Shown here: one piece after another, positions 26,229 to 52,053 of the stretch
Layout: each line of letters opens with the position of its first letter
Position numbering within the stretch: position 1 is the stretch's first letter
Assembly: GCF_008000815.1 (NCBI RefSeq)
Contig: NZ_CP042806.1
Span: 4,402,001-4,466,000, forward strand
Length of the DNA: 64,000 nucleotides
Source: Terriglobus albidus
GTDB lineage: Bacteria; Acidobacteriota; Terriglobia; Terriglobales; Acidobacteriaceae
Reading direction: 5' to 3'
Translations under genes and position numbers: made by a program
Notes under the pieces: generated by a model
Told to the model about the DNA's origin: nothing
The model's input: only the letters and a program-made list of their open reading frames with translations
Database searches by the model: none

Positions 26229-26327
26229 GTGGCAATCATTTTCCGAAGTGGAATTCCTTTTCTCTTTCCATACGGCGGAGTGTGCACAATCCGCACAGCT
26301 TTCAGATTTGGCGAGAGGATTGCACAC

Positions 26328-26984
26328 ATGCATTCGAATCGACTTTCAGCTCTGGGGTTCCCTCGAATGCGCCGTACGATCCTCGCGTTGCTCATCTTCA
26401 CCACCATCACTTGCGGAATGGTTAAGACCGTATCCGCATCTCCAGATTGTTCTAAATGGATCGCCGACTATCGCCAAAAGCTTGAGGCTGACCGTAAAGT
26501 ACAGCGCCTGATTCGTGCAAAGAAGCGGATGCATGCCTACCTAAAAACAAAGCTCCACAAGGAACAGAAGCCGAAGCCAGTGCTGGTTCGTACAGTTGCG
26601 CGTCCCCGCCCGCGCCGTCCCCGTCTCACACCTGAAGAGGCCCTTCGTCGCTTCAAGATCGAATGCGGAGATCTTCCAACGGAAACCCCGAATGGGCCCC
26701 TGCTTCCATACGATCCCACGCCGGCATTCACACTAGCGCGCAACTTTTCGCCTGTCGAGAGTGGAGATACACCTCCCGCCTATCCGCCGTTATCGCCACA
26801 GATTCCCTCAAGCCCAAATACTCCTATTCTCCCTATCAATCCATCTCCCCCAGGGCCTCCGCTCATTCCACCTCCAGGACCACCTGTCACTCCTCCTGTT
26901 CCCGAGCCGAGTTCGATTGTTCTGGTCGCAAGTGGATTGGCCGGTATGGCGGAGATAGTACGCCGTCGTCGCGAGAACAGATAA
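26328..26984 (+). CDS. PEP-CTERM protein with proline-rich tail region
   Basis: The frame opens with GTG 26229 exactly behind the previous stop, but ATG 26328 has AGAGGA upstream and leads directly into a signal peptide (MRRTILALLIFTTITCGMV). The mature protein is basic at first (many Lys/Arg), then very Pro-rich (about residues 140-195). It ends with a textbook exosortase signal: VPEPSSIVLVASGLAG followed by an Arg cluster (RRRREN). It is a predicted substrate of the exosortase encoded at 33695-34630. No enzymatic domain is seen, so a surface or matrix structural role is likely. Confidence 0.85.
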   Translation: MHSNRLSALGFPRMRRTILALLIFTTITCGMVKTVSASPDCSKWIADYRQKLEADRKVQRLIRAKKRMHAYLKTKLHKEQKPKPVLVRTVARPRPRRPRLTPEEALRRFKIECGDLPTETPNGPLLPYDPTPAFTLARNFSPVESGDTPPAYPPLSPQIPSSPNTPILPINPSPPGPPLIPPPGPPVTPPVPEPSSIVLVASGLAGMAEIVRRRRENR

Positions 26985-27291: not shown

Positions 27292-27852
27292 ATGAAACGC
27301 ATGCTTCTCAAGGTACTGACCATCAGCGCAGTACTTCTTGGATCGGTAGGGATTGCCTCAGCCGACTCGATCGGTGGCAAGATCTCGATCACCGGTGGAG
27401 ACACCTATAACAACACCTCGGTGACATTCAACGGCCCAAGCAGCGTCACGCAGGGCACGACCACCGGCACATTCAGCGTTTTTGATAGTGCCGCGACCGT
27501 CACCATGAGCAGCTTTACCTATAACCCTTTCACGCCGAATACGCAGATCCTGCAAATTATTGAAAACGGCATCACTCTCAACGTCATTCTCCAGAGCATC
27601 TCTCTTATCGACAATGCTGGTGGCGCTCTTACGCTGATGGGACAGGCGCTTCTGCAGCAAACGGGATACTCGGATACATTGGGCAGCTTTGTGCTGAGCA
27701 CGCAAGGTGGCGCGAACAGCAATGTTTCGTTCTCCGCAACCGCAGTTGCACCCACGCCGGAACCGAGCACGTTATTCCTTCTCGGAACAGGGCTGGTTGG
27801 ATCTGCAACGGCGCTCTACCGCCGGCGCAGATCTGCTAGCGTTGCTGTCTAA
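27292..27852 (+). CDS. PEP-CTERM sorting-domain protein
   Basis: This 186-residue protein has a ribosome site (GGAGACCCTCT-ATG) and a signal peptide cleaving after IASA. The body is low in charge, Ser/Thr/Gly/Asn-rich and beta-strand-like (SSVTQGTTTGTFSVFDSA), typical of PEP-CTERM structural proteins. The C-terminus is TPEPSTLFLLGTGLVGSA then YRRRR, a complete exosortase recognition signal. It has its own -24/-12 promoter candidate and a terminator-like hairpin after it, so it is probably monocistronic and highly expressed. Confidence 0.9.
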   Translation: MKRMLLKVLTISAVLLGSVGIASADSIGGKISITGGDTYNNTSVTFNGPSSVTQGTTTGTFSVFDSAATVTMSSFTYNPFTPNTQILQIIENGITLNVILQSISLIDNAGGALTLMGQALLQQTGYSDTLGSFVLSTQGGANSNVSFSATAVAPTPEPSTLFLLGTGLVGSATALYRRRRSASVAV

Positions 27853-30712: not shown

Positions 30713-32998
30713 CTATCCGAGTCGCTGCAGTTCTTGTGTTGCAGCCGACATAGTCTGCGTGTTCGGGGCCAGAGAAACTGCTTTTTGTAAGTGTGTGCGG
30801 GCATCAGCTTTCTGGTTGAGCCGGCTATAAGTCATGCCCAGGTGATATTGAATCGAAGCATTCTTCGGGTCTTTCGCGGCCGCATCTTCAAGCAGATCTC
30901 GAGCCATATCGTATGCGCCTTTATGGAAATAGACCCACGCGAGGGTATCGGCAGTACTGGGAGAATTCGGCAGACCACGATGTGCTGTCTGCGCGAGCGA
31001 CAAAGCAACATCCAGATTCATGTCATTCTCTACCATCAGATATGCCAGATTATTTGATGCCATAGGCTGATCCGGTTGGATCTCAAGAGCGTTTTTGTAA
31101 TAGTCCATCGCCTTACTGTGATCTCCGGAAGCCTCTTCCAGCATCCCCAGAATTGACAAACCCTGAGCATCTTTAGGGTGCGATGCAGACCATTGCTGCC
31201 ATCTGGAGATCGCAGCGGGAGTATTTCCTAAGGCGAGTTGCGTTTCGGTATAGATCTTTACCGCTGCAGAATCCGAAGGATCAAGGTGCATCGCTCGCTC
31301 AGCAGAAGTTGCCGCGCCAGCTAAGTCTTTCCGCTCCAGCTGCAGCAATGCAAGCTCGTTGTTGAGTGCGGCACTCTGCGGGAACCGCCCGGCCTGCTCC
31401 CGAACGCGATTGAGAGCTTTGTCTGCCTGCTTCGATTGCAGGTCAGAAAGAACAAGCAGATGAAGTGCCTGCGGATTTCCATTTACCTCCACGGCACGCT
31501 CCAGAAGGGCTCTTGCCTCCGGAACGTGACGCTGGGTAAGTCGGACCTGTGCAAGCTCCAGCATCGCCGTCGAGTTTTTGGGATCGGCCTTGAGTGCACG
31601 CTGAAAGTCATCCGCGGCCTTTTCAAACTGCTTATCATTTGCTTCCGCGGTGCCCAGCCAAAGAAAACCATCCCCACTTGCGGGATATGCTTTGACCGTC
31701 GATGTAGCTATCTGCCTCAGCAGGTCCATATCGCCTTTTGCACTGGCCAACTCGGCCGTGCCTTGAAGCGCGCTGAAATTAGAAGGCTCCGCTATCAGAA
31801 CTTTCTTGAAGCTCTGCTGTGCTAATGGGAAGTCGCCCTTGGTACGGGCTGCGACGCCCAGCCAAAGCGACACTTCGATATTGTCAGGAGAATTTTTCGC
31901 CGCGTCCTGCAACAGCTTATACGCGTCGTCCGCTCGCTTTTGATTGAGAAGGATCATCCCTTTGAGTACCGCCAGGCGGGGATCGCTTTCCCTCAGCCTT
32001 CCTGCTTCATCGGCGATCGTCTGCGCTTGCGTGATTTTATTCTGTGCCACGAGAATGTTTGCATAAGCCAGCTTGAGCGAGACGCTGTCTGGATGACGCT
32101 GGCTCATTGCCGCATAGGCAGACTCAGCCTGATCCAGCTGACTATTCCGAATATAGTAATCCTTCAGAAGGCCGACGGCCTGCGGTGAATCCCTTAGCTC
32201 TTCAGACGCCTTCTGCAATATTGCTTCAGCTTTCGCATGTTCGCCTTGTTGGATATATAAGGCTGCCAAACTCACCCTTGCCTGTAGATTTCCAGGCGAT
32301 GAGGATACGGCCGCAGCAAATTCCCGTTCAGCACCGGATGGGTTATTTTGCCCTTGCAGCATAAACGCGAGTGCAAGATGAGCCGTTGCATCTTTCGGAT
32401 CAAGCTCAATCGCTTTCTTCAGTTCGGCCTGGGCTGTACCACCCGGATTTGCCCCCCCACTCTGCAGCATTCCCAACAGGGTATGGAAGCGTGCGCGGTT
32501 CGGATCTATAGACAAAGCCTTTTTAATTTCATCCATCGCAGCGGCCGTATCTCCGTTCTCCGCTTTAGCTTTTGCAAGCATTGCATGAGCGTCGGCATTA
32601 TTCGGCTGAATCGATAGAATTGCGGATGCTTGATCTTCCGTGATGCCGTACTGTTTACCCGCAAGCGCAAGATCCCCTAAATCCATTCTCGCGGCGATAT
32701 TATCCGGCGCCAGATCCACGGTTCTTTGAAGCTCATTGAATGCAGCCTGCGCCATGTTCATCTGGATATAGGTCTTCGCAAGCTCATAGTGAGCGTCGCC
32801 GAAGTTCTTGTCCGCCTTCAATGCGTTGGCGAACTGAATAGCTGCTTCCTGGTACTTCCCTTCCCGCTCATACCGCCTTCCGCTTTCAAGGTATTTCACA
32901 CGCTGAACTTTCGGATCTCGAAAACAACCTGTAGCCGAGACACAAAAGATTGCGAGGATCATTATTCCAACACGATCTGGCTTTAGCTTCGTCATCAT
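30713..32998 (-). CDS. PrsT-like TPR lipoprotein of the PEP-CTERM/exosortase system
   Basis: This 761-residue protein has a lipoprotein signal peptide with lipobox SATG-C25. The rest is about 18-20 tetratricopeptide repeats, for example YQEAAIQFANALKADKNFGD, then DAHYELAKTYIQMN and DALKADPKNST-type units to the end (IQYHLGMTYSRLNQKADART). Length and architecture match TIGR02917 (PrsT). The family is found only with exosortase and polysaccharide loci; its exact task is unknown, with assembly scaffold as the usual proposal. It lies between EpsI and the flippase in one operon. Confidence 0.88.
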   Translation of the reverse strand: MMTKLKPDRVGIMILAIFCVSATGCFRDPKVQRVKYLESGRRYEREGKYQEAAIQFANALKADKNFGDAHYELAKTYIQMNMAQAAFNELQRTVDLAPDNIAARMDLGDLALAGKQYGITEDQASAILSIQPNNADAHAMLAKAKAENGDTAAAMDEIKKALSIDPNRARFHTLLGMLQSGGANPGGTAQAELKKAIELDPKDATAHLALAFMLQGQNNPSGAEREFAAAVSSSPGNLQARVSLAALYIQQGEHAKAEAILQKASEELRDSPQAVGLLKDYYIRNSQLDQAESAYAAMSQRHPDSVSLKLAYANILVAQNKITQAQTIADEAGRLRESDPRLAVLKGMILLNQKRADDAYKLLQDAAKNSPDNIEVSLWLGVAARTKGDFPLAQQSFKKVLIAEPSNFSALQGTAELASAKGDMDLLRQIATSTVKAYPASGDGFLWLGTAEANDKQFEKAADDFQRALKADPKNSTAMLELAQVRLTQRHVPEARALLERAVEVNGNPQALHLLVLSDLQSKQADKALNRVREQAGRFPQSAALNNELALLQLERKDLAGAATSAERAMHLDPSDSAAVKIYTETQLALGNTPAAISRWQQWSASHPKDAQGLSILGMLEEASGDHSKAMDYYKNALEIQPDQPMASNNLAYLMVENDMNLDVALSLAQTAHRGLPNSPSTADTLAWVYFHKGAYDMARDLLEDAAAKDPKNASIQYHLGMTYSRLNQKADARTHLQKAVSLAPNTQTMSAATQELQRLG

Positions 32999-33047: not shown

Positions 33048-33698
33048 CTAGTCTGGGAGAAACCTTGGAAGCACAGGCGCAAGAGCCGATGCAAACCTGG
33101 TTGCCCTTTCATGTGCACTTTGATACTGCTCTTTCGGATCAATAGGGGTGATGATGCGGATCAGTGCACCATCTGTGCGTCCGTAACGAATCGCATCCAG
33201 CATCATGTATGCCTTTGCGGTGTAGTCATTCGCAATGCTCTTACCGTGTGCGTGATACCAATAAAGCACCAACTGCTTCATGATTCCATTTGTGATCACA
33301 TACTCGCCTACATCACCCTTCATATCGGCTACGACAATTCTTCGAGATGACACGAAACTCCAACCGGCACCGGGCAGGCAGTTCTGCGGGGAATGAATCG
33401 CCTGTCCTGAACGCTGAGTTGGGAAATATGCAATAAACAGGCCGACTGTATCAAAATCTGCACCGCTACCGGCCGTTGCCGCCGATTGGTAGACGCGGTT
33501 TAGAAAATACCCGTCGCCTAGTAACTTCAAAATGCCGGCATCAATTGGAATATCCATGCTTACCCGCGAATCAACTTGTTCCGGCAATTGAGATAAAGGT
33601 GCGCGGAAAGGCACACGATCCGCATCAGAACGGCTATGGATAATCAGCACTGCTGCTATCAGGGATGTAACAATCACGGCAAAACGAGACTTGCTCAT
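33048..33698 (-). CDS. epsI: EpsI-family exosortase-associated protein
   Basis: This 216-residue protein has an N-terminal membrane anchor (FAVIVTSLIAAVLIIHS). Family landmarks are visible: DGYFLNRVYQ, VGLFIAYFPTQRSGQAIHSP, QNCLPGAGW (conserved Cys and Pro), GIMKQLVLYWYHAHGK and RTDGALIRI. EpsI domains occur either fused to exosortases or encoded next to them; here they are separate genes overlapping by 4 bp. It is thought to help exosortase function or polysaccharide processing. Confidence 0.9.
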   Translation of the reverse strand: MSKSRFAVIVTSLIAAVLIIHSRSDADRVPFRAPLSQLPEQVDSRVSMDIPIDAGILKLLGDGYFLNRVYQSAATAGSGADFDTVGLFIAYFPTQRSGQAIHSPQNCLPGAGWSFVSSRRIVVADMKGDVGEYVITNGIMKQLVLYWYHAHGKSIANDYTAKAYMMLDAIRYGRTDGALIRIITPIDPKEQYQSAHERATRFASALAPVLPRFLPD

Positions 33699-34630
33699 CG
33701 GCTCACCTCGGAGCCTTGGGAAAAGACATCCATCATTCTATGAACGCAATAGAGGCACCCTAAAGAGAGCACAAACATTAGCCAGCCTGAGAATTCATGA
33801 AAGAAACCAATCGCCTTATCCGGATTCCAATACTGCACACAGAGTCCTGTCCCAACAATCCTTAGGGAGTTTGCTACCACCGCGATAGGCACACTGGCTA
33901 ACGCCAGCAGAATTCGCTTGCCAGTGCTTCGTTCTAAAAAATATCCATAAAGAATTGCGATCGTGAGAAGACTAAGCAGCGAGCGGATTCCACTACAAGC
34001 CTCAGCAACTTCCAGCTGGATGGAAGGTAGTTGAATTACATTGCCTTCACGCAACACGGGGACACCGAACAGGGGCAGCAATAAACTGGCCGTCCTGGAA
34101 GCTAGAAGCTGAAGCGGAAAAGTAATCTGATTGAAGATTACTGCGGGCAGCGGTATCGCCAGAAGCAGAATGCCCAACGGGAACTTCAACGCCCGCAGAA
34201 TGTGCGCGCCTAATAGCGTCCATACGACTCCCGCGAGCAATACCACGAGAGACACCCGTGAGAGAAAAATCTCAGCTCCAAAGGTTCCCAGCATCAGCAG
34301 GATCAGACCGAAGGAAAAGAGAGCCATCCCCTTCCACGTTTGATTGATGTCAACGTTCCACAAAACGTCTCGCCGTTCCCAGATAAGGTAGGCCACAAAG
34401 AACGGGACCAGGAAGCCATGTGAGAAGTCGGGGAGAACATACCAGTCGGAGATCAGCTTCCCCATGGTCCGTCCATAGAGAAGAGCCACGAGTACTGCGA
34501 TGATTGCGAGTTGCACGGACGTGGCCGCAGTTATTCTCGAAAACCATGTTTTGCCGCTAAGGCTGTCCGGCATCTGAGGTACTGGACTTGGAGATGACAA
34601 CACGTCAACCGTTCCACGCACTTCGCTCAT
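33695..34630 (-). CDS. Exosortase (PEP-CTERM sorting transpeptidase)
   Basis: This inner-membrane Cys protease/transpeptidase has 8 or so helices and all catalytic positions: Cys in VAEACSGIRSLLSL, Arg in VANSLRIVGTG, and His in FFHEFSGW. The open frame begins at 34747, but the -24/-12 element at 34661-34676 lies inside that extension, so ATG 34630 (MSEVRG), about 20 nt after the predicted transcription start, is chosen (311 residues). The product would cleave the VPEPSS/TPEPST proteins encoded at 26328 and 27292. It heads the operon exosortase-epsI-prsT-flippase. Likely XrtA/EpsH group by its gene neighbours. Confidence 0.92.
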   Translation of the reverse strand: MSEVRGTVDVLSSPSPVPQMPDSLSGKTWFSRITAATSVQLAIIAVLVALLYGRTMGKLISDWYVLPDFSHGFLVPFFVAYLIWERRDVLWNVDINQTWKGMALFSFGLILLMLGTFGAEIFLSRVSLVVLLAGVVWTLLGAHILRALKFPLGILLLAIPLPAVIFNQITFPLQLLASRTASLLLPLFGVPVLREGNVIQLPSIQLEVAEACSGIRSLLSLLTIAILYGYFLERSTGKRILLALASVPIAVVANSLRIVGTGLCVQYWNPDKAIGFFHEFSGWLMFVLSLGCLYCVHRMMDVFSQGSEVSR

Positions 34631-34660
34631 CGACTGTTCACGCATCACAGTTTTCACACA

Positions 34661-34676
34661 AGCAATTGACCTGCCA
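34661..34676 (-). promoter_or_regulatory. Sigma-54 promoter of the exosortase operon
   Basis: On the minus strand TGGCAGGTCAATTGCT matches 11 of 12 positions of the -24/-12 consensus (TGGCACG-N4-TTGCW), including TGGCA and TTGCT with correct spacing. The predicted transcription start is near 34650. Confidence 0.75.
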
Positions 34677-34737
34677 TGAGAATCAACCGTCTTACCAAGG
34701 ACAGGCCTCCCCACAAGCCCTCTTTTGCAGTGCCCAT

Positions 34738-34777
34738 GGGAAAACATTTTCCACTTTCAAGGGAAAACATTTTTCCC
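34738..34777. promoter_or_regulatory. Tandem palindromes, candidate enhancer sites for a sigma-54 activator
   Basis: Two near-identical elements, GGGAAAACATTTTCC at 34738 and GGGAAAACATTTTTCCC at 34761, are 23 bp apart. The second is a perfect GGGAAAA-N3-TTTTCCC dyad. They sit between the two divergent -24/-12 elements, 62-101 bp from the minus promoter and 113-152 bp from the plus promoter. That is the classic position for Fis-type activator binding. Confidence 0.7.
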
Positions 34778-34889
34778 ATTACCCTGCAAAATTCTTCACA
34801 TTGCGACTCAGCCGCCATGCGCGCACTCAAAAGCCTAAATATAGGGCTGATACCGGTATGTTGCGTTCAATCTGACCACAGAACACGTT

Positions 34890-34905
34890 TGGCCCTTTCT
34901 GTGCA
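34890..34905 (+). promoter_or_regulatory. Sigma-54 promoter of the export/assembly operon
   Basis: TGGCCCTTTCTGTGCA has TGGC, the C at the sixth position and TGCA with exact spacing (9 of 12 consensus positions). It lies 75 bp upstream of the ATG at 34980. Confidence 0.65.
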
Positions 34906-34979
34906 TTATCCGATGTTGTAACGCATAGCACCCGTCAAGGGTCTCACCAGCTTCACACTTTACTTTGAATCAAGAACGC

Positions 34980-35606
34980 ATGAAATCACTCGCGGCATCT
35001 CTCATCGCACTTTTTTTGCTGGACTTGGTATCTGCAGGAGCTCAAACGGCGAAGCCCCTCATCAGTCCAACTTCCGAACCGCATCGTTCTCGTGCCGCCC
35101 AGCCAACTTCCGGTCCAGCAGCCGTAGACGGCAACTATATTATTGGCGCCGACGATGTGCTGCAGATTACCGTATGGAAAGAGGCCAGCATGTCGGGCAG
35201 CCTACCTGTCCGTCCTGACGGAATGATCTCCATGGTGCTCATCGGCGATCTTCCCGCAGCCGGAAAAACCCCGATGCAGCTGGCCAGCGACGTCGAGGGT
35301 CGGCTGAAGAAGTATGTGCAGGACCCCAACGTCACAGTCGTCGTTTCGGCGGTAAACAGTCATCGGGTGTTTGTGGTTGGAGAGGTACAGCACGTCGGCC
35401 CCATTACATTGAGCGCCGGCATGACTGCGCTGCAGGCAATTGCCGCAGCCGGAGGGTTGACTCCCTACGCGAATCAGAAACACATCTACATTCTTCGCAG
35501 AGTAAAGGGCCAACAACAGAAGGTGCTTTTTAACTACAAAGGCGCTATCAGGGGAGATTCAATGGGACCCGATCTCGAGACTGGCGACACAATCGTGGTG
35601 CCCTGA
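34980..35606 (+). CDS. Wza-type polysaccharide export protein (exosortase locus type)
   Basis: This protein of about 208 residues starts at ATG 34980 (the frame also opens at TTG 34965) with a signal peptide (KSLAASLIALFLLDLVSAG). A Poly_export domain follows (YIIGADDVLQITVWKEASMS ... VRPDGMISMVLIGD) and then a SLBB-like domain (HRVFVVGEVQHVGPITLSAG). It is short compared with E. coli Wza and matches the PEP-CTERM-locus subfamily TIGR03027. No lipobox Cys is evident. It is the first gene of a seven-gene operon and would form or gate the outer-membrane export channel. Confidence 0.9.
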   Translation: MKSLAASLIALFLLDLVSAGAQTAKPLISPTSEPHRSRAAQPTSGPAAVDGNYIIGADDVLQITVWKEASMSGSLPVRPDGMISMVLIGDLPAAGKTPMQLASDVEGRLKKYVQDPNVTVVVSAVNSHRVFVVGEVQHVGPITLSAGMTALQAIAAAGGLTPYANQKHIYILRRVKGQQQKVLFNYKGAIRGDSMGPDLETGDTIVVP

Positions 35607-36904
35607 TGAATAGATCTTTATACAAGTCCGCCATCTCTTTGATCTTCCTTTCGGGTCCCCTTGCGGCCATTGGCCAAGCTGTACCGGCTGCCACTGCAAA
35701 TGTAACCTCCAACGTCCCGAGTTATGGAATCCAGCAGGGCGGAACGCTGAATTATTCTCTCGGCGCATCGGAGACCATCATTACCGGATACAACGGCAAT
35801 GGTGGTACTGCGAACAGCACTAATATATTTGGCCGGGCTTCGCTCGTTACCTCCAACGAGACAAGGCCAACCAGTCTTATTTATTCGGGGGGGTACATCT
35901 TTTCTGAGATCCCCGGCCAGCCATCCTCGACCTTTCACAATCTTGGTCTCTCACAAGTTCTCGCGACAAAGCACTGGAACTTCGTTCTGTCCGACCTGGT
36001 AAGTTATCTCCCTTCCTCGCAAACAACGGGCATCTCTGGAATTGCAGGTACAGGAGACGTTGGCACGTCCGCCACCGGCCCCGTCCTTGGTCAAGGTGTT
36101 CTCACGTATTACGCGACTCGTATTGTGAACACTGCCAGCGGAAGCGTCGAAGGCAAGATTACCTCCAGCACCGCAATTGAAACATCCGTCTCCTACGGAA
36201 TCCAAAGGTTCATCAACAGCCAGGGCATCGATAACTCGCAGTACACAGGGACAATCGGTCCACAACACCGGATTAACGAACGAAATTCGATTGGCGCAAA
36301 CTATACCTATTCGCGCTTTAGCTATGGTTCCAATCCATACACGACCACTAGCAAATTTGATTTCGTTGCGCAGGGTGGCAATCTAACGTATGAACACCTG
36401 TTCTCCCGCCGGCTCTCGACAAACGTCTCCATTGGACCGCAATGGACCCGCAGCAGCAATGGTTCTTCTCTGCCTTCTCACCTGAGCTTTGCAGCAAACA
36501 CTTCGCTGAACTATCTCGGAAAACTCTCTCATGCAGCCCTGGTGTACTACCGGGGCACCGATGCCGGCTCTGGAGTTTTACTCGGCGCTGTCTCCGACGA
36601 CGTAGGCCTTCTATATCAGCAGACACTTGACCCCAACTGGAGTGTAGGGCTTTCCGGGAACTATGCCCGAACCTCGGGAGTGCTGGCTTACAACACCGGC
36701 AAATCGAAGAGCAATACATTCTACGGCGGCATTCAGCTGACGCGAAAGCTTGGCCACGATTTCGCCGTCTATGGCAGCTATAACGCGCAAAATCAGAGGA
36801 TCAACAATATCGCCGGATTTCAGAATGCGTTCAACGGCCTTACGCAGATATTCGGCTTTGGCATCATCTATTCTCCCCAATCCATCCGCATCGGACGGCA
36901 TTAG
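35606..36904 (+). CDS. Outer-membrane beta-barrel protein of the exopolysaccharide locus
   Basis: This 432-residue protein overlaps the Wza-like gene by 1 bp and has a signal peptide (SAISLIFLSGPLAAIGQ). The body is a long run of alternating, Tyr/Ser/Asn-rich amphipathic strands (RISLIYSGGYIF-like; NSIGANYTYSRFSYGSNPY; SNTFYGGIQLTRKLG) and it ends FGFGIIYSPQSIRIGRH. It is probably the barrel partner (TIGR03016-like) that exports the polymer. Sequence conservation in this group is low, so family assignment rests on position and beta-barrel character. Confidence 0.75.
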   Translation: MNRSLYKSAISLIFLSGPLAAIGQAVPAATANVTSNVPSYGIQQGGTLNYSLGASETIITGYNGNGGTANSTNIFGRASLVTSNETRPTSLIYSGGYIFSEIPGQPSSTFHNLGLSQVLATKHWNFVLSDLVSYLPSSQTTGISGIAGTGDVGTSATGPVLGQGVLTYYATRIVNTASGSVEGKITSSTAIETSVSYGIQRFINSQGIDNSQYTGTIGPQHRINERNSIGANYTYSRFSYGSNPYTTTSKFDFVAQGGNLTYEHLFSRRLSTNVSIGPQWTRSSNGSSLPSHLSFAANTSLNYLGKLSHAALVYYRGTDAGSGVLLGAVSDDVGLLYQQTLDPNWSVGLSGNYARTSGVLAYNTGKSKSNTFYGGIQLTRKLGHDFAVYGSYNAQNQRINNIAGFQNAFNGLTQIFGFGIIYSPQSIRIGRH

Positions 36905-36916
36905 AAGGGTTTCTTC

Positions 36917-38431
36917 ATGCTTGGACATCGCTCCTTACGATTTCAGGATTATCTCGATATTTTGAAGCGACATTGCTGGGTCATTCTGATCCCGAGCATT
37001 CTGCTGCCCATCGCCGGCGTTGTGATCACATTCTTCATTCAACCGAAATTTCTTTCTCAGACGCTGGTATTAATCGAACAGCAAAAAGTTCCGGATGACT
37101 ACGTTAAGCCTGTAGTGACATCAGATCTGGATGACCGATTGGCATCCATGAAAGAGCAGATCCTTAGCCGCTCCAGACTGCAACCGATCATTGAACGTTT
37201 CAGTCTTTATCCTGGAGCGCAGATGGAAGACCGCGTGAACGCGGCTCGCAAAAATATAGATGTCAAGCCGATTCACTCTGAGATTGCTCGTTCAGGAGGC
37301 CTTCCTGGTTTCTTTATCACTTTCAAAGCCGGCGATCCAAGAACGGCCCAGGCAGTCTGCGGAGAGATCACCTCTCTCTTCGTGAATGAAAACTTACGCG
37401 ACCGTGAACAATCAGCTGTTGGTACAACAGATTTCTTGAAAGGTCAGCTCGCCGACGCGAAACGAAAACTCGACGAACAAGACGCTCGGCTCGCCGAGTT
37501 TCAGCGGAAATACATTGGCAAGCTCCCGGATCAACAGTCTCCGAATGTAAACATGCTGACCAGTCTGAACACACAGCTAGAAGCTATTACGCAGCAGCTG
37601 TCCCGCGTGGAACAAGACAAAACTTATGCCGAGTCCATGCTTGCACAACAGCTTCGTGAAGTGCCTGTATCTTCCACCTCAGGCACTTCGCTCTCCGCGC
37701 AGCAGGCGGAACTAGAACAGCTTGTCTCGCAAGAGACTGACTTGGCGAATCGTTACACACCCGACTATCCGGACCTGAAAGCCGTGCGCCGAAAGATCGC
37801 TGAACTTCGGGCAAAGATGAATCAGGCGCCCTCTTCCACTCCCGCAATTACCCCTGCCCTGCCTCATGCTGAACCCATTGGCATGCAGCAGCTGCGAGCG
37901 CAAATTCGCGCCGCCGAACAAGGAATACAGGCGAAGCGTCATGAGCAGGTACAAATACAGGATGAAATCCGTGTCTATCAAGGGCGGATTCAAGCCAGCC
38001 CGTTAGTCGAAGAAGAATACAAGGAAGTTACTCGTGACAACGAAACAGCTCAGAAATTTTATGAGACGCTACTTTCGAAGATGAACCAGTCGAAGATGGC
38101 GACCGATCTGGAGCGTAGAAATCAAGGGGAGCAATTTCGCGTTATGGATGAACCGAATTTACCTGACGCTCCCGTTTTTCCCAAGCGTCTTTATTTTGCA
38201 GGCGGTGGCTTTGCTCTTGGCCTACTACTCGGCATAGGAATTGTCGTTCTGCTCGAACACAAGGACCAATCACTTCGTACAGAAGACGACATCTGGCAGC
38301 TCACGAAGCTTCCTACGCTCGCCGTTATCTCGCTCATTGATCTTGCCCTGCCTGATGCTCGTATTGAGAATTTGCCGAAGCAAGATGCCTTCCTAGGGAG
38401 AGCAGAAATTACTCCGGGGGCGCAAAGATAG
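36917..38431 (+). CDS. Wzz-type chain-length determinant (PEP-CTERM locus type)
   Basis: This 504-residue inner-membrane protein has a TM at about residues 20-42 (HCWVILIPSILLPIAGVVI), a Wzz fold behind it, and a long periplasmic coiled coil (about 160-390; Gln/Glu-rich, QLADAKRKLDEQDARLAEFQ). A second TM lies at about 425-447 (YFAGGGFALGLLLGIGIVV) just after a PxxP motif (PNLPDAPVFPKRL). It fits TIGR03007. It lacks a fused kinase; the tyrosine kinase is encoded two genes downstream, the usual proteobacterial-type split. Confidence 0.9.
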   Translation: MLGHRSLRFQDYLDILKRHCWVILIPSILLPIAGVVITFFIQPKFLSQTLVLIEQQKVPDDYVKPVVTSDLDDRLASMKEQILSRSRLQPIIERFSLYPGAQMEDRVNAARKNIDVKPIHSEIARSGGLPGFFITFKAGDPRTAQAVCGEITSLFVNENLRDREQSAVGTTDFLKGQLADAKRKLDEQDARLAEFQRKYIGKLPDQQSPNVNMLTSLNTQLEAITQQLSRVEQDKTYAESMLAQQLREVPVSSTSGTSLSAQQAELEQLVSQETDLANRYTPDYPDLKAVRRKIAELRAKMNQAPSSTPAITPALPHAEPIGMQQLRAQIRAAEQGIQAKRHEQVQIQDEIRVYQGRIQASPLVEEEYKEVTRDNETAQKFYETLLSKMNQSKMATDLERRNQGEQFRVMDEPNLPDAPVFPKRLYFAGGGFALGLLLGIGIVVLLEHKDQSLRTEDDIWQLTKLPTLAVISLIDLALPDARIENLPKQDAFLGRAEITPGAQR

Positions 38432-38433
38432 CA

Positions 38434-39318
38434 ATGTATAAATCGTTCTACGGACTCAACAGTAATCCATTTGGCCTTAGTCCCGACCCCAGGTATCTTT
38501 ACGCAACGCCAGCTACAAGAGAGGCGCTTGCCTGCCTGCAATATGGAATCAGCAGTAGAAAAGGGTTCATCGTTCTCACGGGTGAGGTTGGGACAGGTAA
38601 GACGACCCTTCTACGAAGCGCGCTCGAATCTGTTCGAGCAAATAACATTCACACTTCGTTCGTCTTCAATCCGCGTCTTGAAGCCGCCGACTTTCTTGAG
38701 TTCGTAATGACCGACTTCGGTATCGCATGCGCCTCAAGAAGCAAGTCGGCGATGCTGATGGCGCTCAACAAATGGTTGATTGATCGGTTTTCCCGGAAGG
38801 AAATCTGCGTCCTCATCATCGACGAAGCCCATTCCCTTTCCGCCGACATGCTCGAGGAAATTCGTCTGCTCACCAACCTTGAAACTTCATCCGAGAAGCT
38901 TCTGCAGATCGTTTTGTCGGGACAGCCTGAATTGGAAGAACGTCTTCGCATGACTGCATTGCGACAGTTGCGCCAACGAATCGCGCTTTACTCACGAACA
39001 TTTGTTTTCGATGAGCAGCAGACCGCAGCGTACATACAGCACCGTCTTTATGTCTCCGGCACCGACAAACCAATTTTTCCCGGTTCTGTTCTGAAATTGA
39101 TCCATCGCTTCAGCCGTGGCATTCCACGGGTCATCAATCTCATTTGCGAACATGCCCTCGTCTTTGGATTTGTAGACCAGACGCCACAGATTGAAGAGAT
39201 GGTTATCTACGATGTAGTTCATGACCTCGGCCTTGTAGAGACGAGCATGCTGAATACGTCTGAACCCGGTAATCCCTCAGAAGATCTCATCACCTCTCAA
39301 AAAGAAAGGTCGGCGTAA
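38434..39318 (+). CDS. AAA ATPase, ExeA/GspA-like, exosortase-locus type
   Basis: This 294-residue protein opens with MYKSFYGLNSNPFGLSPDP, the hallmark of the TIGR03015 (XrtA-associated) ATPases. Walker A is GEVGTGKTTLL and Walker B is VLIIDEAHSLS. Sensor and arginine residues are in LRQRIALYSRTF. It lies 2 bp after the wzz stop. It probably powers or organises assembly of the export complex; the family role is not settled. Confidence 0.9.
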   Translation: MYKSFYGLNSNPFGLSPDPRYLYATPATREALACLQYGISSRKGFIVLTGEVGTGKTTLLRSALESVRANNIHTSFVFNPRLEAADFLEFVMTDFGIACASRSKSAMLMALNKWLIDRFSRKEICVLIIDEAHSLSADMLEEIRLLTNLETSSEKLLQIVLSGQPELEERLRMTALRQLRQRIALYSRTFVFDEQQTAAYIQHRLYVSGTDKPIFPGSVLKLIHRFSRGIPRVINLICEHALVFGFVDQTPQIEEMVIYDVVHDLGLVETSMLNTSEPGNPSEDLITSQKERSA

Positions 39319-40247
39319 TGAGCAAGATTTATGAGGCTCTGCTCAGAGCGGAACTGGACCGGCTTTCCGTCGGCTTAGAAGATCAACAGCCTGAAGACAT
39401 TGCGGCCAGGACATCTGCGACAGAATTGAAGATCGCTCGTCCTGAGGAAGTGGATGCTGTTCCTGCAGCACATGGTCTCAAAGAGGATTTGACGTACTCG
39501 ATTTTTTCTCCTCGAGGCGCCATCAGCAGAAGGAATTGGAATCCAGATACCTCACACCTTCCCGCGCTCGACCGCAGAGGGACGCTGGTTGAGCAATTCA
39601 GGAGTCTGCGCTCAAGGCTCTATGAACTGCGTTCGCATCAGCCGCTGAAATCTATTTTGATCAGTAGTGCAATGCCACAGGAAGGCAAGAGCTTCATCGC
39701 CGCCAATCTCGCCATGTGCCTTGCAATGCATCAGAACAGCAAGGTTTTGTTGATCGATGGAGATATGCGCCGTTACACGCTTCACAAGATCATTGGCTGC
39801 AGCTCACAGCCCGGCTTAGCGAGCTATCTATCAGGCGATACCCAGATGCTTGACATCATGCAGCAATACTCCGGTACCAATGACCCCAATTTGCGGCGTC
39901 TGGAAGCCCTGACCTTCATTGGTGGCGGCAATGCGAGCGAGAAAGCGGGCGATCTAGCCGCAAATGGGAACTTCAGCAAATTGATCCAGACACTGTCGTC
40001 GCTCTTCGATTGGATCATCATCGATTCTTCCCCTGTCTGCCTGGTGTCGGACGCAACCGCTTTGGCGCGCTCAAGTGACGGCGTGTTGCTGGTGGCTCGC
40101 GAAGGTGTCACCCAGGCTGCGGATGCACAGCGAGCGGCCAGCGAATTCAGATCGGCAAATCTTCTCGGGTTTGTACTCAACGGAAGCCGGAAAACCATCA
40201 AAGACGACTACTACGGCTATGACGGCCCTTATGACAAACAGGAGTAG
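39318..40247 (+). CDS. Tyrosine autokinase, BY-kinase/CpsD-like
   Basis: This 309-residue protein overlaps the preceding stop by 1 bp. The BY-kinase motifs are Walker A SAMPQEGKSFIAANLA, Walker A' VLLIDGDMRRYTL and Walker B FDWIIIDSSP. A C-terminal tyrosine cluster (YYGYDGPY) provides the autophosphorylation sites. The N-terminal 90 residues are a variable tail. It corresponds to TIGR03018. It would phosphorylate itself in trans and cycle with the Wzz protein to control polymer length and export. Confidence 0.92.
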   Translation: MSKIYEALLRAELDRLSVGLEDQQPEDIAARTSATELKIARPEEVDAVPAAHGLKEDLTYSIFSPRGAISRRNWNPDTSHLPALDRRGTLVEQFRSLRSRLYELRSHQPLKSILISSAMPQEGKSFIAANLAMCLAMHQNSKVLLIDGDMRRYTLHKIIGCSSQPGLASYLSGDTQMLDIMQQYSGTNDPNLRRLEALTFIGGGNASEKAGDLAANGNFSKLIQTLSSLFDWIIIDSSPVCLVSDATALARSSDGVLLVAREGVTQAADAQRAASEFRSANLLGFVLNGSRKTIKDDYYGYDGPYDKQE

Positions 40248-46404: not shown

Positions 46405-47582
46405 GAGTTGCTGTCGTTACGCAGTATTTTCCGATCTCTTTTCAGCCGTGGGCCGGTCATTCCGCATACCAGACGCTCCGGCACCTTGCCCAACAATGCG
46501 ATCTAAAGGTGTTTTATCCGCATGCGGTTGACGCAGCGGGCATCAGGCCTGCCAGCCGCAGGCAACGATTGCCTGTCGATCGTGATTATCGACCGCGAGG
46601 AGTGGACGTGGAATATGTTCCCTATCCCGTGGTTCCAGTGCTCTCGCGTCCTTTTAATGGGTGGATGGCGGCGGCGAAGCTTTTACCGCATGTAATGCGC
46701 TATCGGCCCGACGTCATTCTTAATTATGTCGTCTATCCTGATGGGCTGGCAGCAACGACCATCGCGCAAAAGCTCAAAGTCCCTGTAGTGCTCACCGCAA
46801 TCGGCTCTGACCTGAACCGCATGAGCGATCCCATCTGTGCAAGTCTGACGCGATCGACCCTGCGGCGAGCGGATATCACAATCACTGTCAGCCGTGACCT
46901 ACTGAAGACCGCGCTACGCCTCGGCTCTGCTCCCGAGCGCAGCCATGCAATCCTGAATGGATGCGACACCGCCGTGTTCCGCGTCCGCGACATGGCGGAT
47001 GCGAGGAATCAGATTGGGATGTCTCATGACGTAGAAGCCGTCGTCTATGTGGGACGATTTGATGTCAGGAAAGGCTTGATAGAGCTGCTTCGCGCCGCGG
47101 CAGATCTACGCATGAGGCGCCCTGGCCTGAATCTATATCTCATCGGTGACGGACCGGATAAGCCCGAGCTCCTGGAAGAGATCCAGAAATATCAGGCGTC
47201 CGGATGGATTCATCTTATTCCCCCTTGCACAAGCGCTCTTGTTGCCCTTTGGATGTCTGCCGCGAATCTGGTGACACTGCCCAGCTATAAAGAGGGATGC
47301 CCAAATGTAGTGATTGAAGCGCTAGCCGCGGGCCGGCCCGTGGTAGCGACTGAAGTCGGAGGCATTCCGGAGTTGATGAATGAGTCCTGCGGACGACTTG
47401 TAGCGCCACAAAATGTCCAGGAGCTTGAGCTGGCATTGGATCAGACGTTGAGCGCCCGCTGGAATCCTGATGAAATTTCCAGGCGGCATAACCGGAGCTG
47501 GAAAGCAGTCGCTTCCGACGTATACGACTGCCTTTTCCAGGCAATACAGACACGCGCCGCAAATAAACTAAGGGCGCCGTAG
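46401..47582 (+). CDS. Glycosyltransferase family 4
   Basis: This 393-residue protein overlaps the preceding gene by 4 bp. It starts MRVAVVTQYFPISFQPWAGH. Donor-domain motifs are VVYVGRFDVRKGLIELLRA, LNLYLIGDGPDKPELLE and EGCPNVVIEALAAGRPVVAT (complete EX7E). It is the third gene of the run and ends in a 15-bp convergent overlap with the sigma-54 regulator gene. Confidence 0.9.
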   Translation: MRVAVVTQYFPISFQPWAGHSAYQTLRHLAQQCDLKVFYPHAVDAAGIRPASRRQRLPVDRDYRPRGVDVEYVPYPVVPVLSRPFNGWMAAAKLLPHVMRYRPDVILNYVVYPDGLAATTIAQKLKVPVVLTAIGSDLNRMSDPICASLTRSTLRRADITITVSRDLLKTALRLGSAPERSHAILNGCDTAVFRVRDMADARNQIGMSHDVEAVVYVGRFDVRKGLIELLRAAADLRMRRPGLNLYLIGDGPDKPELLEEIQKYQASGWIHLIPPCTSALVALWMSAANLVTLPSYKEGCPNVVIEALAAGRPVVATEVGGIPELMNESCGRLVAPQNVQELELALDQTLSARWNPDEISRRHNRSWKAVASDVYDCLFQAIQTRAANKLRAP

Positions 47583-48707
47583 CAACTGCGTTGAGTTTGC
47601 CTGGGTATTGATATCGAGGCTCTCTACACTTCGAAATCCGTCAGGAGAGGGGAGGACGGAGTCGGACTCCTGATCCTCATCCAGATGCTCATGAATCCCC
47701 ACTTCATTCAGCTTATAGAGCAGTGAGCGATAGCTAATATCGAGCCACTTCGCCGTCTTCTGCCGATTCCAGCCATTGGCATGGAGCACTTTCAGAATGA
47801 TCTGCTTTTCCAGATCCCTCGTTGCATTCTTGGTGATCTGTTTCAGTGAGAATGGCTTCGAGAGGTCAATCTCGGCCGTGACCTGATCGCTCCTCATCGA
47901 CCTCGGGGTTACCTCCGACAAAATGAGGTCCTCATCCCCGATTAGGCTATAGCTGCGAATCAAGTTGTCCAGCTGCCGGATATTGCCAGGCCACTCGTAC
48001 GCTTGCATGATCTGGACTACTTCTTTCGAAATGGGCTTCGGCGAAACCCGAAAGCTGCCTGCGTGCACCTTTGAGAAGTGATCTACAAGTAAGGGGATAT
48101 CCGCACGGCGCCGTCTCAGCGGCACCAGATTGATCGTAACCGCGTTGATCCGGTAGAGTAGATCCAGTCGGAATGTTCCGGCCGCAACCTGGTCCCGCAG
48201 GTCATTGTTGGCAATTGAAATGATCCGCGTAGAGATGGATATCGGGTCGTGTCCCCCAACTCTTGTAAATGTGCCGTCTTGAAGCAACTGAAGCAACTTC
48301 GCCTGGGCTGCAACATCCAGACTTCCCACCTCATCCAAGACCAGGGTGCCTCCATCGGCCTGCTCGACCCGACCACGCTTTCCAGCGTTCGCCCCCGTGA
48401 AAGCTCCCTTCTCGTATCCGAATATCTCCGTTTCCAACAGAGAGTGAGGAATCGCGGGGCAGCTTACCTTAATAAAGGAATTGCGATGCCGTGCAGAAAA
48501 GGCGTGAACCAATTGAGCGCAAAGATCCTTGCCTGTACCGCTTTCCCCCTGCAATAAGACAGGCACATCTGAACCGGACACGAGCTCGATACGGCGCCGT
48601 ACATCCAGCATGGCCTGAGTTGTTCCAAAAATTACATCGAAGGGCGGAAACGGGGCTGGGGCTCCCCCGAAACGTAACGAAGAACTTAATGGCCGAACGT
48701 ATGTCAT
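47568..48707 (-). CDS. Sigma-54-dependent transcriptional activator without a sensory domain
   Basis: This regulator of about 379 residues is taken from ATG 48707 (GCAGGGAAA upstream); the frame also opens at 48767. The AAA+ domain follows a short N-terminus: Walker A GESGTGKDLCAQLVH, sigma-54 contact loop GAFTGA (in GYEKGAFTGANAGK), Walker B GGTLVLDEVGSLD and an Arg finger region DLLYRINAVTINLVPLR. The C-terminal Fis-type helix-turn-helix is WNRQKTAKWLDISYRSLLYK. With no receiver or GAF domain, activity is probably set by expression level or a partner protein. It is divergent from the second activator. Confidence 0.9.
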   Translation of the reverse strand: MTYVRPLSSSLRFGGAPAPFPPFDVIFGTTQAMLDVRRRIELVSGSDVPVLLQGESGTGKDLCAQLVHAFSARHRNSFIKVSCPAIPHSLLETEIFGYEKGAFTGANAGKRGRVEQADGGTLVLDEVGSLDVAAQAKLLQLLQDGTFTRVGGHDPISISTRIISIANNDLRDQVAAGTFRLDLLYRINAVTINLVPLRRRRADIPLLVDHFSKVHAGSFRVSPKPISKEVVQIMQAYEWPGNIRQLDNLIRSYSLIGDEDLILSEVTPRSMRSDQVTAEIDLSKPFSLKQITKNATRDLEKQIILKVLHANGWNRQKTAKWLDISYRSLLYKLNEVGIHEHLDEDQESDSVLPSPDGFRSVESLDINTQANSTQLLRRP

Positions 48708-49014
48708 TTTCCCTGCGTCGCCGATTGCTAATGTGCGGCAACAATGTAGCAGCACATCAATAACCATCCTGATAATTCGACCAAAGTACCGTACTCTTCC
48801 CTGTTACTTTAGATCGCCATAGTCCGCCCAGAAGGCCATATTCATTTTTACAAGCAACATTTGCCGGCGATTTGCGTCTTTTCGTTAGAGAACATTTTTA
48901 CCCAATGGATGGAAATGAATTTCTCTCTTAGATTCCCCAAAACTTCATCAGCCGACATCGTAGGCATTTTTTTGCGCAATTTGGCCCGGAAAACGGAAGA
49001 TGTGTACCCATGTT

Positions 49015-49137: not shown

Positions 49138-50562
49138 TTGGAGCTATTGATGGCTTTTTCCCATTCCTCCGCAGCATTTATGCGTACCGCCAAACGAACG
49201 GTTTATATCCAGGAAGATAACCAGCCGCTCGCCAATTACATTGCCGACAAGCTCGACCCCAGATATGCGCTGCGCTTTTTCACAGAAGGCGAGGCTCTAT
49301 TGAAGGCTTTACAGGCCGCGCCTGCGCCGGATGCCATCGTGATGGCATGGGAGAATGCAGAGAAGTCGGGTCCGCTGCTCTCTAAAACCCTCAGCCGTGC
49401 CGACGCATCGGTCGTCTTCGTCGCATCCAGTTCTGCAAATGTAGATGAGCTTTCCCTCGCCACCCGCCTCGGCGCAAGCGGTTTGCTGCGTAAGCCTTAC
49501 TCTGCAGAAGACATCGAGGAGGCTATCGAACGGCAGTTCCAACCCATCGCCTCCTCAGTAAAAGGCTCAGAAGAGCCCGTTGAGACTCCGCTTGGCGACA
49601 ACACATCCTTTGTGCGTTCGAGCAAGCGCATGCGAGAGATCGAGACTCAGGTTGGTCTTGTGGCTCGATCGGATATACCCGTCCTCATCCTGGGCGAGAG
49701 CGGTACGGGCAAAGAGGTTCTCGCAAAATTCACACATGCGATGTCAAATCGCGCCAGCAAAATGTTTCTGAAGGTCAATTGCGCCGCAATGCCTACAGAA
49801 CTTTTGGAAAGCGAACTCTTTGGATACGAACAAGGTGCATTTACAGGCGCCGTAAAAACCAAGCCTGGCAAATTTGAAATCTGCAACGGCGGTACCATCT
49901 TCCTCGATGAGATCGGCGAGATGCCCGCTCTTCTGCAAGCAAAGCTGCTTCATGTACTGCAGGACGGAACGTTCTCGCGCCTTGGAAGCCGGGCGCCCAT
50001 GAAGGCAGACGTTCGCGTGATTGCAGCGACAAATATCGACATGAAAACCGCCATCGCGCAGAAGACCTTCCGTCAGGATCTGTATTACCGCCTCAATGGC
50101 TTTTCGTTCACCCTGCCCCCGCTCCGTGAACGTCGAGAAGAAATCAGTACGTTCGCTAAATTCTTTATGCAAAAGTCTGCTTCGCGATATGGCCGGGATC
50201 CCCTGCCCATCTCGTCCACACTGATGACAACTCTCATTCAATATCCGTGGCCGGGAAACCTCCGCGAGCTTGAAAATGTCATAAGCAGGTTCCTTGTAAT
50301 CGGCGATGAGCATGCCATCATCTCCGAGTTGAGCGCAAGGCAACCAACTGCACCTACCGCCGCCATCGGGGACACATCCAACGCATTAGGACTGAAGCAA
50401 CTTGTACGCAGCCTTAAAGGCGACGCCGAGGCGGCAGCTATTGCAAGTGCTCTTGAGGAGACGAAGTGGAATCGCAAAGCAGCAGCAAGCAAGATGAAAA
50501 TCAGCTACAAGGCTCTTCTTTACAAGATCAAGGAGTACGAGCTGACCGAGAAGAAGATATAA
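49138..50562 (+). CDS. PrsR-like sigma-54 activator with a pseudo-receiver domain
   Basis: This 474-residue protein has at residues about 18-135 a CheY-like receiver fold (TVYIQEDNQPLANYIADKL ... GLLRKPYSAEDIEEAIE). The acidic E-D pair and the conserved Lys remain, but the phosphoacceptor Asp in the PDxxxxD segment is Ala (PDAIVMAWENAE). The AAA+ domain is complete: GESGTGKEVLAKFTH, GAFTGA, GGTIFLDEIGEMPA and DLYYRLNGFSFTLPPLRERR. The C-terminus has a Fis-type HTH (WNRKAAASKMKISYKALLYK). PrsR of exosortase systems normally pairs with the kinase PrsK; no prsK is in the window, which fits loss of phosphorylation control. Confidence 0.88.
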   Translation: MELLMAFSHSSAAFMRTAKRTVYIQEDNQPLANYIADKLDPRYALRFFTEGEALLKALQAAPAPDAIVMAWENAEKSGPLLSKTLSRADASVVFVASSSANVDELSLATRLGASGLLRKPYSAEDIEEAIERQFQPIASSVKGSEEPVETPLGDNTSFVRSSKRMREIETQVGLVARSDIPVLILGESGTGKEVLAKFTHAMSNRASKMFLKVNCAAMPTELLESELFGYEQGAFTGAVKTKPGKFEICNGGTIFLDEIGEMPALLQAKLLHVLQDGTFSRLGSRAPMKADVRVIAATNIDMKTAIAQKTFRQDLYYRLNGFSFTLPPLRERREEISTFAKFFMQKSASRYGRDPLPISSTLMTTLIQYPWPGNLRELENVISRFLVIGDEHAIISELSARQPTAPTAAIGDTSNALGLKQLVRSLKGDAEAAAIASALEETKWNRKAAASKMKISYKALLYKIKEYELTEKKI

Positions 50563-51034: not shown

Positions 51035-51991
51035 TCAATTCGCAAGCGCAAGCGGCATGCTAACTTTGTACCAGTCAATCGTCTTTCTGACTCCCGTCGC
51101 AAAATCCGTAACCACGTTGTAGCCCAGCAAAGCCCGTGCAGAAGAAATATCCGCCACTGAATGTTTGATATCTCCTTCACGCTCCGGCTTCCATCGGAGG
51201 TCGCCGTCATAGTTCACCAAGCTGCGAATCTGTTGATACGCTGAGAACAGAGTAGTAGCCTGCCCTATCCCTACATTGAATATCTTTCCGGAAACGCATG
51301 AAGGGGCTTTGGCTGCCAGCAGATTCGCGCTAACCACGTTGTCGATATAGGTGAAATCGCGGCTAGTGGTTCCATCTCCGAAGATAGTGGGCGCTTCCCC
51401 TTCTAACATCTGAGAGATAAAACGAGCCAGCACACCAGAGTATTGCGATGTAGGGTCTTGTCTTGGCCCAAAAATATTGAAATAACGCAGCGCCACTGTT
51501 TGCAAACCATACACCCGGGCGTAACTCGCAAGATAATACTCGCCAGCCACCTTCTGCACGGCATAAGGAGAGATCGGCGCAGGTGCCATGGATTCTCGCT
51601 TTGGCAAATCTAACGAGTCTCCGTATGCAGCCGAAGAAGCTGCATAAATGAACCGCTTCACGCCGGCTCTGCGAGCCGCCTCCAGGACACAGAGTGTTCC
51701 CGTGAGATTCGGCGCGTTTGTCCCGAGCGGATCGGCAACCGAAACCGGAACCGATGGAATAGCCGCCTGGTGGAAAACATAGTCCACTTCTCGGAAAGCA
51801 TTTTCCATTTCATGGGCATCCGTCACATCGGCAAACCGGAAATCAATCGAACTCCGGATATCTTCGATGTTTTCTTCTTTCCCTGTGCTGAGATTGTCTA
51901 TGCCTCGCACAGTTCCATTCTCTTTCAGTACGCCTCTCGCAATGCTAGAGCCTATAAAACCCGCAATTCCAGTGATTAAAACCTTCGCCAT
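51035..51991 (-). CDS. NAD-dependent nucleotide-sugar epimerase (GalE/WbpP-like SDR)
   Basis: This 318-residue extended SDR has an N-terminal NAD motif GIAGFIGS in VLITGIAGFIGSSIARGV, DNLSTGKEENI after strand 2, the catalytic AASSAAYG (Ser) and SPYAVQKVAGEYYL (Tyr-x3-Lys), and RYFNIFGPRQDP. It resembles UDP-GlcNAc/UDP-Glc 4-epimerases or uronate epimerases of polysaccharide loci. It supplies a sugar donor for the glycosyltransferases. It is transcribed from a near-consensus sigma-54 element 47 bp upstream. Confidence 0.9.
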   Translation of the reverse strand: MAKVLITGIAGFIGSSIARGVLKENGTVRGIDNLSTGKEENIEDIRSSIDFRFADVTDAHEMENAFREVDYVFHQAAIPSVPVSVADPLGTNAPNLTGTLCVLEAARRAGVKRFIYAASSAAYGDSLDLPKRESMAPAPISPYAVQKVAGEYYLASYARVYGLQTVALRYFNIFGPRQDPTSQYSGVLARFISQMLEGEAPTIFGDGTTSRDFTYIDNVVSANLLAAKAPSCVSGKIFNVGIGQATTLFSAYQQIRSLVNYDGDLRWKPEREGDIKHSVADISSARALLGYNVVTDFATGVRKTIDWYKVSMPLALAN

Positions 51992-52028: not shown

Positions 52029-52037
52029 ACTGTTTTT

Positions 52038-52053
52038 GCAACCCACGGGCCAA
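52038..52053 (-). promoter_or_regulatory. Sigma-54 promoter of the epimerase gene
   Basis: On the minus strand TGGCCCGTGGGTTGCA matches 11 of 12 consensus positions of TGGCACG-N4-TTGCA. It is one of the two best matches in the window. The predicted leader is about 36 nt before the ATG at 51991. Confidence 0.75.

Follow-up and report, generated by a model that had tools for sequence, protein, structure and literature searches.

The gap of about 335 bp that separates an exosortase operon from a Wza-led polysaccharide export operon in Terriglobus albidus is, in our assessment, probably a divergent sigma-54 control region, in which a shared palindromic enhancer would allow an activator pair to open both promoters as part of a regulon that includes an exosortase substrate. 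This hub occupies positions 34640-34980 of the 64,000-nucleotide stretch of contig NZ_CP042806.1 that was analysed, hereafter the window, with the exosortase operon on the minus strand and the export operon on the plus strand. Acidobacteria are abundant soil bacteria that are said to make much extracellular matrix, and we know of little work on how that matrix is controlled; our search of the open-licence literature found no report of an acidobacterial exosortase together with exopolysaccharide, nor of a sigma-54 enhancer and activator regulon for such a system. The prediction from sequence places an exporter and a sorting enzyme under one switch and names two activators for the regulon, along with an enhancer consensus and the expected transcription starts, all of which are testable in cultured Edaphobacter or Granulicella.

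A -24/-12 element faces each operon, as the initial annotation had proposed. Sequence reading, a pattern scan, and comparison with relatives all point to TGGCAGG-N4-TTGCT on the exosortase side (TGGCAGGTCAATTGCT, 34676-34661, minus strand) and to TTTGGCCCTTTCTGTGCA on the Wza side (34888..34905, plus strand), the core of the latter being TGGCCCTTTCTGTGCA at 34890-34905. Both elements have the GG at -24, the GC at -12, and the fixed spacing of sigma-54 promoters, and the transcription starts predicted from them are at about 34650 (minus, exosortase) and about 34916 (plus, Wza). The pattern YGGCA-N6-TTGCW has a single match on the two strands of the whole window, which is the exosortase-side element (shuffle mean 0.89); with about one match expected per window this box is unremarkable window-wide, yet it falls in the right gap and in the right orientation. 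TTTGGC-N7-GTGCW, the Wza element with a TT prefix, likewise has a single match in the window (shuffle mean 0.11), and the score of the Wza box taken alone is modest (0.84, shuffle p 0.07). A scan of 34000-36000 returned no sigma-70-like promoter. The genome encodes RpoN (PF04552, 195.4 bits), as did all 15 of the genomes tested; because some of these are without the two activators described below, RpoN is not specific to the system. The predicted promoter also favours the earlier view that the longest-frame start of the exosortase (34747) is wrong, in that a gene beginning there would contain the -24/-12 box as well as part of palindrome copy 1; an ATG at 34645 or 34630 fits better. We similarly judge the ATG at 34980 to be a better start for Wza than the TTG frame start at 34965.

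The exosortase gene (33695..34645, minus strand, from the ATG at 34645; Exosortase_EpsH domain) is followed by genes for an EpsI-family exosortase partner (33048..33698, minus; TIGR02914, 124.6 bits, cut-off 42.8) and a PrsT-type TPR lipoprotein (30713..32998, minus; TIGR02917, 378.9 bits, cut-off 312.2). The exosortase passes the XrtA profile TIGR03109 narrowly (212.1 against a cut-off of 208 bits), and its scores for XrtD (235.1) and XrtW (217.6) exceed the XrtA score yet lie below their own cut-offs of 400 and 425; its closest named relatives are mostly from Granulicella, Edaphobacter, and other Acidobacteriaceae. The export operon opens with the Wza-type polysaccharide export protein (34980..35606, plus; Poly_export and SLBB domains) and continues with genes resembling a chain-length determinant, an XrtA-associated ATPase, and a tyrosine autokinase (36917..40247, plus), for which the best profile matches, TIGR03007, TIGR03015, and TIGR03018, are all under their curated cut-offs, while the kinase-like gene passes TIGR01007 (121 versus 108.05 bits).

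Two putative enhancer palindromes lie between the promoters, the first (GGGAAAACATTTTCC, 34738-34752) identified by a motif match and by a relaxed site in relatives and the second (GGGAAAACATTTTTCCC, 34761-34777) by a motif match and by being of the same type as the AAGTGGGAAANNTTTTTCCC conserved in relatives; neither is assigned to a strand. The tandem arrangement claimed in the initial annotation held, with two copies of GGGAAAACATTTT spaced 23 bp from start to start, and needed one small correction, namely that their centres differ (2 nt in copy 1 and 3 nt in copy 2). With up to one mismatch allowed, GGGAAAACATTTT has two matches in the window against 0.09 expected, and the tandem palindrome is thus well beyond chance there; in the 6.4-Mb single-contig genome the two hub copies are the only perfect ones. 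A plasmid collection gave no match. The palindrome is unlikely to be a genome-wide regulon site in this organism: among 18 near matches in the genome, several of them overlapping, 10 loci were inspected, of which eight lie inside open frames of more than 300 aa and one has a box of at least 0.87 within 500 nt. The window alone would not settle the case, and relatives were left to decide it.

The activators that had been named as candidates are divergent neighbours about 13 kb from the hub, and their domains confirm that both are Fis-type sigma-54 activators, each with an AAA+ domain, a GAFTGA loop, and a Fis-type helix-turn-helix. Domain profiles and alignment show activator B (47568..48767, minus strand) to be without a receiver domain, and activator A (49138..50562, plus strand) has a weak receiver match (Response_reg, 27.3 bits, cut-off 30.2). 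At the position that we take, from general knowledge of receiver domains, to be that of the phosphoacceptor aspartate, A or P is found in 13 of 13 aligned sequences of activator A, which thus seems to be without this residue; among 11 aligned activator B sequences there was no receiver. In six of the ten relatives aligned, the region between the two genes contains sites that resemble AGTGGTAAAC, continue into TCTCT, and amount to a degenerate version of the palindrome; looser forms occur in some other relatives. Autoregulation is only suggested by these sites, because a stricter dyad pattern qualifies in just 1 of 11 (0.3 expected). The window also has a box of sigma-54 type ahead of activator A (49015), which was not seen in 12 relatives and was judged to be a chance match. 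In one relative (L133) a single box (0.97) points towards activator B near its start, and the activator B ortholog of a same-genus genome (G006, L131) has GAFNGA rather than GAFTGA as its sigma-54 contact loop.

Conservation was assessed in 108 exosortase loci (28 of 30 fetched plus 80 kept of 309), 65 of which have a divergent Wza gene no more than 1500 nt away, the other 43 including contigs that end too early. Removal of four near-duplicates left 61 loci with a divergent Wza gene. Orthologs of activators A and B, with 50% identity or more, are adjacent and divergent in 39 of these 61 genomes, being neighbours on opposite strands of one contig; the rest comprise four with A and without a B ortholog, 16 with neither at the E-value cut-offs used, and two that are ambiguous. 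The 39 loci with both orthologs, all from Acidobacteriaceae, formed the main test set. To avoid favouring boxes that fit at -24, only the -12 element was used to select sites, in the form ATTGCW that the relatives had supplied. This word is present in 34 of the 39 loci, and 32 of the 36 sites have GG at -24, against a background of 5.5%. With scoring relaxed so that C was allowed for T, an exosortase-side box of at least 0.85 is found in 31/39 loci with both activators, 1/4 with A only, and 1/16 with neither, and a Wza-side box in 29/39, 3/4, and 3/16; the exosortase box is thus missing at this score in eight loci that have both activators. The association between activators and boxes was not significant after phylogenetic correction, as the tree of 59 loci offered only four independent pairs with starred support and none of the pairwise tests can reach significance with so few; pairs running the same way and the opposite way numbered 1.6 and 0 for the exosortase box, 1.2 and 0.2 for the Wza box, and 0.9 and 1.2 for the palindrome.

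An alignment of 22 of the loci, chosen for their mutual similarity, has few conserved blocks, namely GTATGCAGATTAGCAG, AAGTGGGAAANNTTTTTCCC, CTACCACTTT, CGGCAYGNAAATTGCTTACA, and GTGAAGTATAACGTC, against a poorly conserved background. In the same-genus genome G006 the exosortase box is strong, the Wza box reaches only 0.81, and the palindrome is degenerate. One locus scored as being without both activators (L099) has an exosortase box and a palindrome, and belongs to a 2.9-Mb metagenome-assembled genome that may be incomplete. The GTGAAGTATAACGTC block follows the -12 element on the exosortase side of many relatives (e.g., L063, L057, and L059) and is absent from the window; possible readings of it are a leader, a GTG start that is nearly leaderless, and a sigma-70 -10 element, and by eye a coding role is disfavoured by stops or frameshifts after the block in L096 and L053. 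Two records, titled Verrucomicrobia (L091) and Rhodanobacteraceae (L104), carry an acidobacterial-type locus, which suggests mislabelled or mixed metagenome bins.

The palindrome is likewise enriched in the relatives, with the qualification that its word, like the -12 word, was selected after inspecting them. Where both activators are present, 23 of the 39 hubs have it in relaxed form (at least 13 of 16 positions), compared with 1.1 in shuffled sequence, and the other 16 do not; it also occurs in two of the four hubs with A only (0.0 expected) and in 4 of the 16 with neither (0.3 expected), so that its presence follows that of the activators only imperfectly. In 31 genomes GTGGRAANNNTTTTYCC has 11 matches, seven in the hub, one between the activator genes (G069), and three elsewhere, compared with four matches for the reversed control word. 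The strongest evidence for the enhancer candidate is its spacing, which could be measured in the 28 of 39 loci that allowed both the exosortase box and the palindrome to be located; the palindrome cut used here, at least 12 of 16 positions (31/39 hubs versus 8.2 expected by shuffling), is looser than that used for enrichment. The distance from the palindrome centre to the Wza -24 box is 121-182 nt in 25 of the 28 loci, and that to the -24 box of the exosortase is 56-104 nt in 22. Conservation among relatives, which had been set beforehand as one of two tests on which the proposal could fail, was therefore found for the boxes and, through this tight spacing in most of the 28 loci, for the palindromes. 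Four Granulicella loci (L119, L051, L066, and L067) had appeared palindrome-free when the vicinity of the exosortase was inspected, and alignment located their palindrome on the Wza side, 168-170 nt from the Wza box and 492-617 nt from the exosortase box; the group constitutes a natural test of enhancer range. Among ten same-genus loci with a divergent Wza gene, the strict palindrome is present only in the window's own, one other (L027) has GGAAAGCAGTTTCC, and the remaining eight gave no match to the palindrome patterns used. Our confidence in the preferred explanation is slightly tempered because the spacing relies on the looser cut and because the nearest members of the genus are mostly without the palindrome.

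The same type of promoter precedes a PEP-CTERM gene in the window, which encodes a likely exosortase substrate (26367..26984, plus strand; profile match, with the start at 26367 being our choice). Scans located a sigma-54-like box upstream of it (TGGCGAGAGGATTGCA, 26309..26324, plus), matched by boxes in its homologs, and an enhancer-like site (AGTGGAATTCCTTTTCTCT, 26247..26265, plus). At E 0.001 the entire genome yielded only two PEP-CTERM proteins, both of them in the window (26367-26984 and 27292-27852), and the substrates of the exosortase may be very few; the second gene (27292) has only a weak box (0.81), leaving one of the two genes, together with its homologs, preceded by a sigma-54 box. 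Homologs of the first gene are present in 35 of 46 genomes. Thirty loci were fetched for their upstream regions, one of which had no match upon re-alignment, and the remaining 29, whose homologs are 29-64% identical, were examined with the window for a total of 30. ATTGCW is present at -150 to -20 in 26 of the 30 regions, 24 of its 29 sites have GG at -24, and a palindrome-like site is present in 14 of the 30 versus 0.5 expected, for a pattern chosen after looking. In five genomes (G063, G069, G071, G074, and G075) the PEP-CTERM gene lies on the same contig as the hub and 0.8-1.4 Mb away from it, and proximity to the hub therefore does not account for the shared elements; all five have a GG/GC box, three of them at 0.84 or more. 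Since homologs of the window's gene carry -24/-12 boxes, the regulon probably covers sorting enzyme, exporter, and substrate. A further sigma-54-like box (TGGCCCGTGGGTTGCA, 0.94) was observed at 52037-52052 (minus strand), in the gap upstream of an epimerase-like frame (51035-51991).

We propose that RNA polymerase with RpoN would wait inactive at the -24/-12 promoter of each operon until a Fis-type activator of the 47568/49138 pair binds the palindromic enhancer between them, whose general form is AGTGGGAAA-N-TTTCCC. DNA looping would then open both promoters, such that the exosortase, EpsI, and PrsT would be made together with the polysaccharide export operon, and the like promoter, often with a like site, before the PEP-CTERM gene would bring the substrate into the regulon. 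The degenerate site between the activator genes of relatives suggests that the activators may also regulate themselves. An ordinary kinase is probably not what controls the system, for which the amount of activator, a ligand, or a partner protein is more likely, because activator A seems to be without the phosphoacceptor aspartate and activator B is without a receiver. The broader proposition, that throughout the Acidobacteriaceae the enzyme, the exporter, dispersed PEP-CTERM genes, and the activators would form one sigma-54 regulon acting via GGG(A/T)AA-N-TT(T)CCC, with a divergent activator pair that is not phosphorylatable in the usual way and that is separate from PrsK/PrsR, is one that we regard as evenly balanced.

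Other explanations of the same region differ in which part of it they dispute. The rival to which we give most room, while still doubting it, divides the region into two adjacent switches, with activator A serving Wza and activator B serving the exosortase under separate control. Two genomes (G004 and G011) that have A, no B ortholog at the cut-off, a Wza-side box of 0.95, and no exosortase box speak for such a division, but the two are sisters on the tree and come close to representing one event, a third genome with A only (G005) has neither box, and in most of the loci that could be measured the palindrome keeps a constrained distance to each of the two boxes. It is unlikely that the palindrome is instead the site of an unrelated repressor or activator (e.g., a one-component regulator), with the sigma-54 activators binding elsewhere, such as at the conserved TGCAG-N-CAG or CTACCACTTT. 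Other conserved blocks do sit beside the palindrome, which is weak or absent in 16/39 loci with both activators and present in 4/16 with neither; against this, the position of the palindrome is nearly fixed relative to both promoters and is one that is usual for sigma-54 enhancers, and like sites occur upstream of PEP-CTERM genes and, in degenerate form, between the activator genes.

That the exosortase operon has an ordinary sigma-70 promoter, with TTGCTT as the -35, TATAAC 17-18 nt on as the -10, and an incidental GG at -24, is very improbable. The GTGAAGTATAACGTC block after the box in many Edaphobacter-type relatives would suit such a promoter, as would the fact that 15 of the 36 sites have TATAAC or TATATC 18-19 nt past the box, yet the window, G006, and the four Granulicella are without TATAAC and keep the GG/GC, and in L053 the elements are separated by about 12 additional bases. 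TTGCTT is moreover a poor sigma-70 -35 by consensus, and retention of the -24 GG at 32 of 36 sites and the scan of 34000-36000, in which there was no sigma-70-like site, argue in the same direction. We attach almost no weight to the inverted repeat acting as RNA, in the form of an attenuator or leader hairpin: folding of the strand is favourable (-24.3 kcal/mol, z -4.96), as a nested palindrome would lead one to expect in any case, but both predicted starts lie downstream of the repeat, aligned relatives do not show evident outer arms, and the sole Rfam match up to E 1 is the TP53TG1 lncRNA family, far under threshold.

Overall, the hub resembles, in acidobacterial form, a switch for matrix genes that is known from other bacteria. 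The divergent sigma-54 promoters of hyc/hyp in Escherichia coli share FhlA activator sites; the hub resembles them in its two predicted divergent sigma-54 promoters with putative shared activator sites and differs in that both the genes and the activator are unrelated. SypG of Vibrio fischeri (PMC10162802), a sigma-54 activator of the syp polysaccharide locus, is similar in presiding over a polysaccharide locus, but it needs phosphorylation of a conserved aspartate, and the portion of that paper available here makes no mention of an exosortase. In Desulfovibrio vulgaris (PMC3333781), the response regulator DVUA0057 is encoded in an exopolysaccharide-related operon, and a binding assay enriched five predicted PEP-CTERM targets for it; sites confirmed in that study were mostly palindromic, while DVUA0057 belongs to a two-component set and is given there without a validated binding motif. 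The PEP-CTERM gene pepA of Aquincola tertiaricarbonis has a mapped start behind a -24/-12 promoter and is RpoN-dependent (PMC9850573), and unlike the present case it is a single substrate gene in an organism that has PrsK/PrsR.

The closest parallel is the PrsK/PrsR regulon of Proteobacteria, in which sigma-54 boxes and an upstream activator site precede PEP-CTERM genes, the motifs lying 62.8 nt apart on average (Haft et al. 2006, PMC1569441). The likeness lies in the sigma-54 boxes before PEP-CTERM genes, the Fis-type activator, and the presence of PrsT here too. By the curated cut-offs the system in the window is not PrsK/PrsR: when the two window activators were scanned as PrsR (TIGR02915) they scored 303.4 (A) and 256.2 (B) against a cut-off of 502.6 bits, and PrsK (TIGR02916) was over its cut-off in 0 of 15 genomes, the best score in the window's genome being 105.8 versus 300 bits among the 40 of 66 candidates scored there. 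The 17-nt motif 1 of Haft et al. ends in TTTACA, a word that is absent from the window's hub, occurs eight times in the 39 hubs of relatives (in seven hubs) versus 12 times for the reversed word, and was found in the 30 PEP-CTERM upstream regions zero times forward and once in reverse. The systems differ further in that the exosortase and export operons themselves would here share one divergent control region. The 2006 paper found its motifs in Proteobacteria alone, and the hub would extend sigma-54 control of exosortase systems beyond that phylum.
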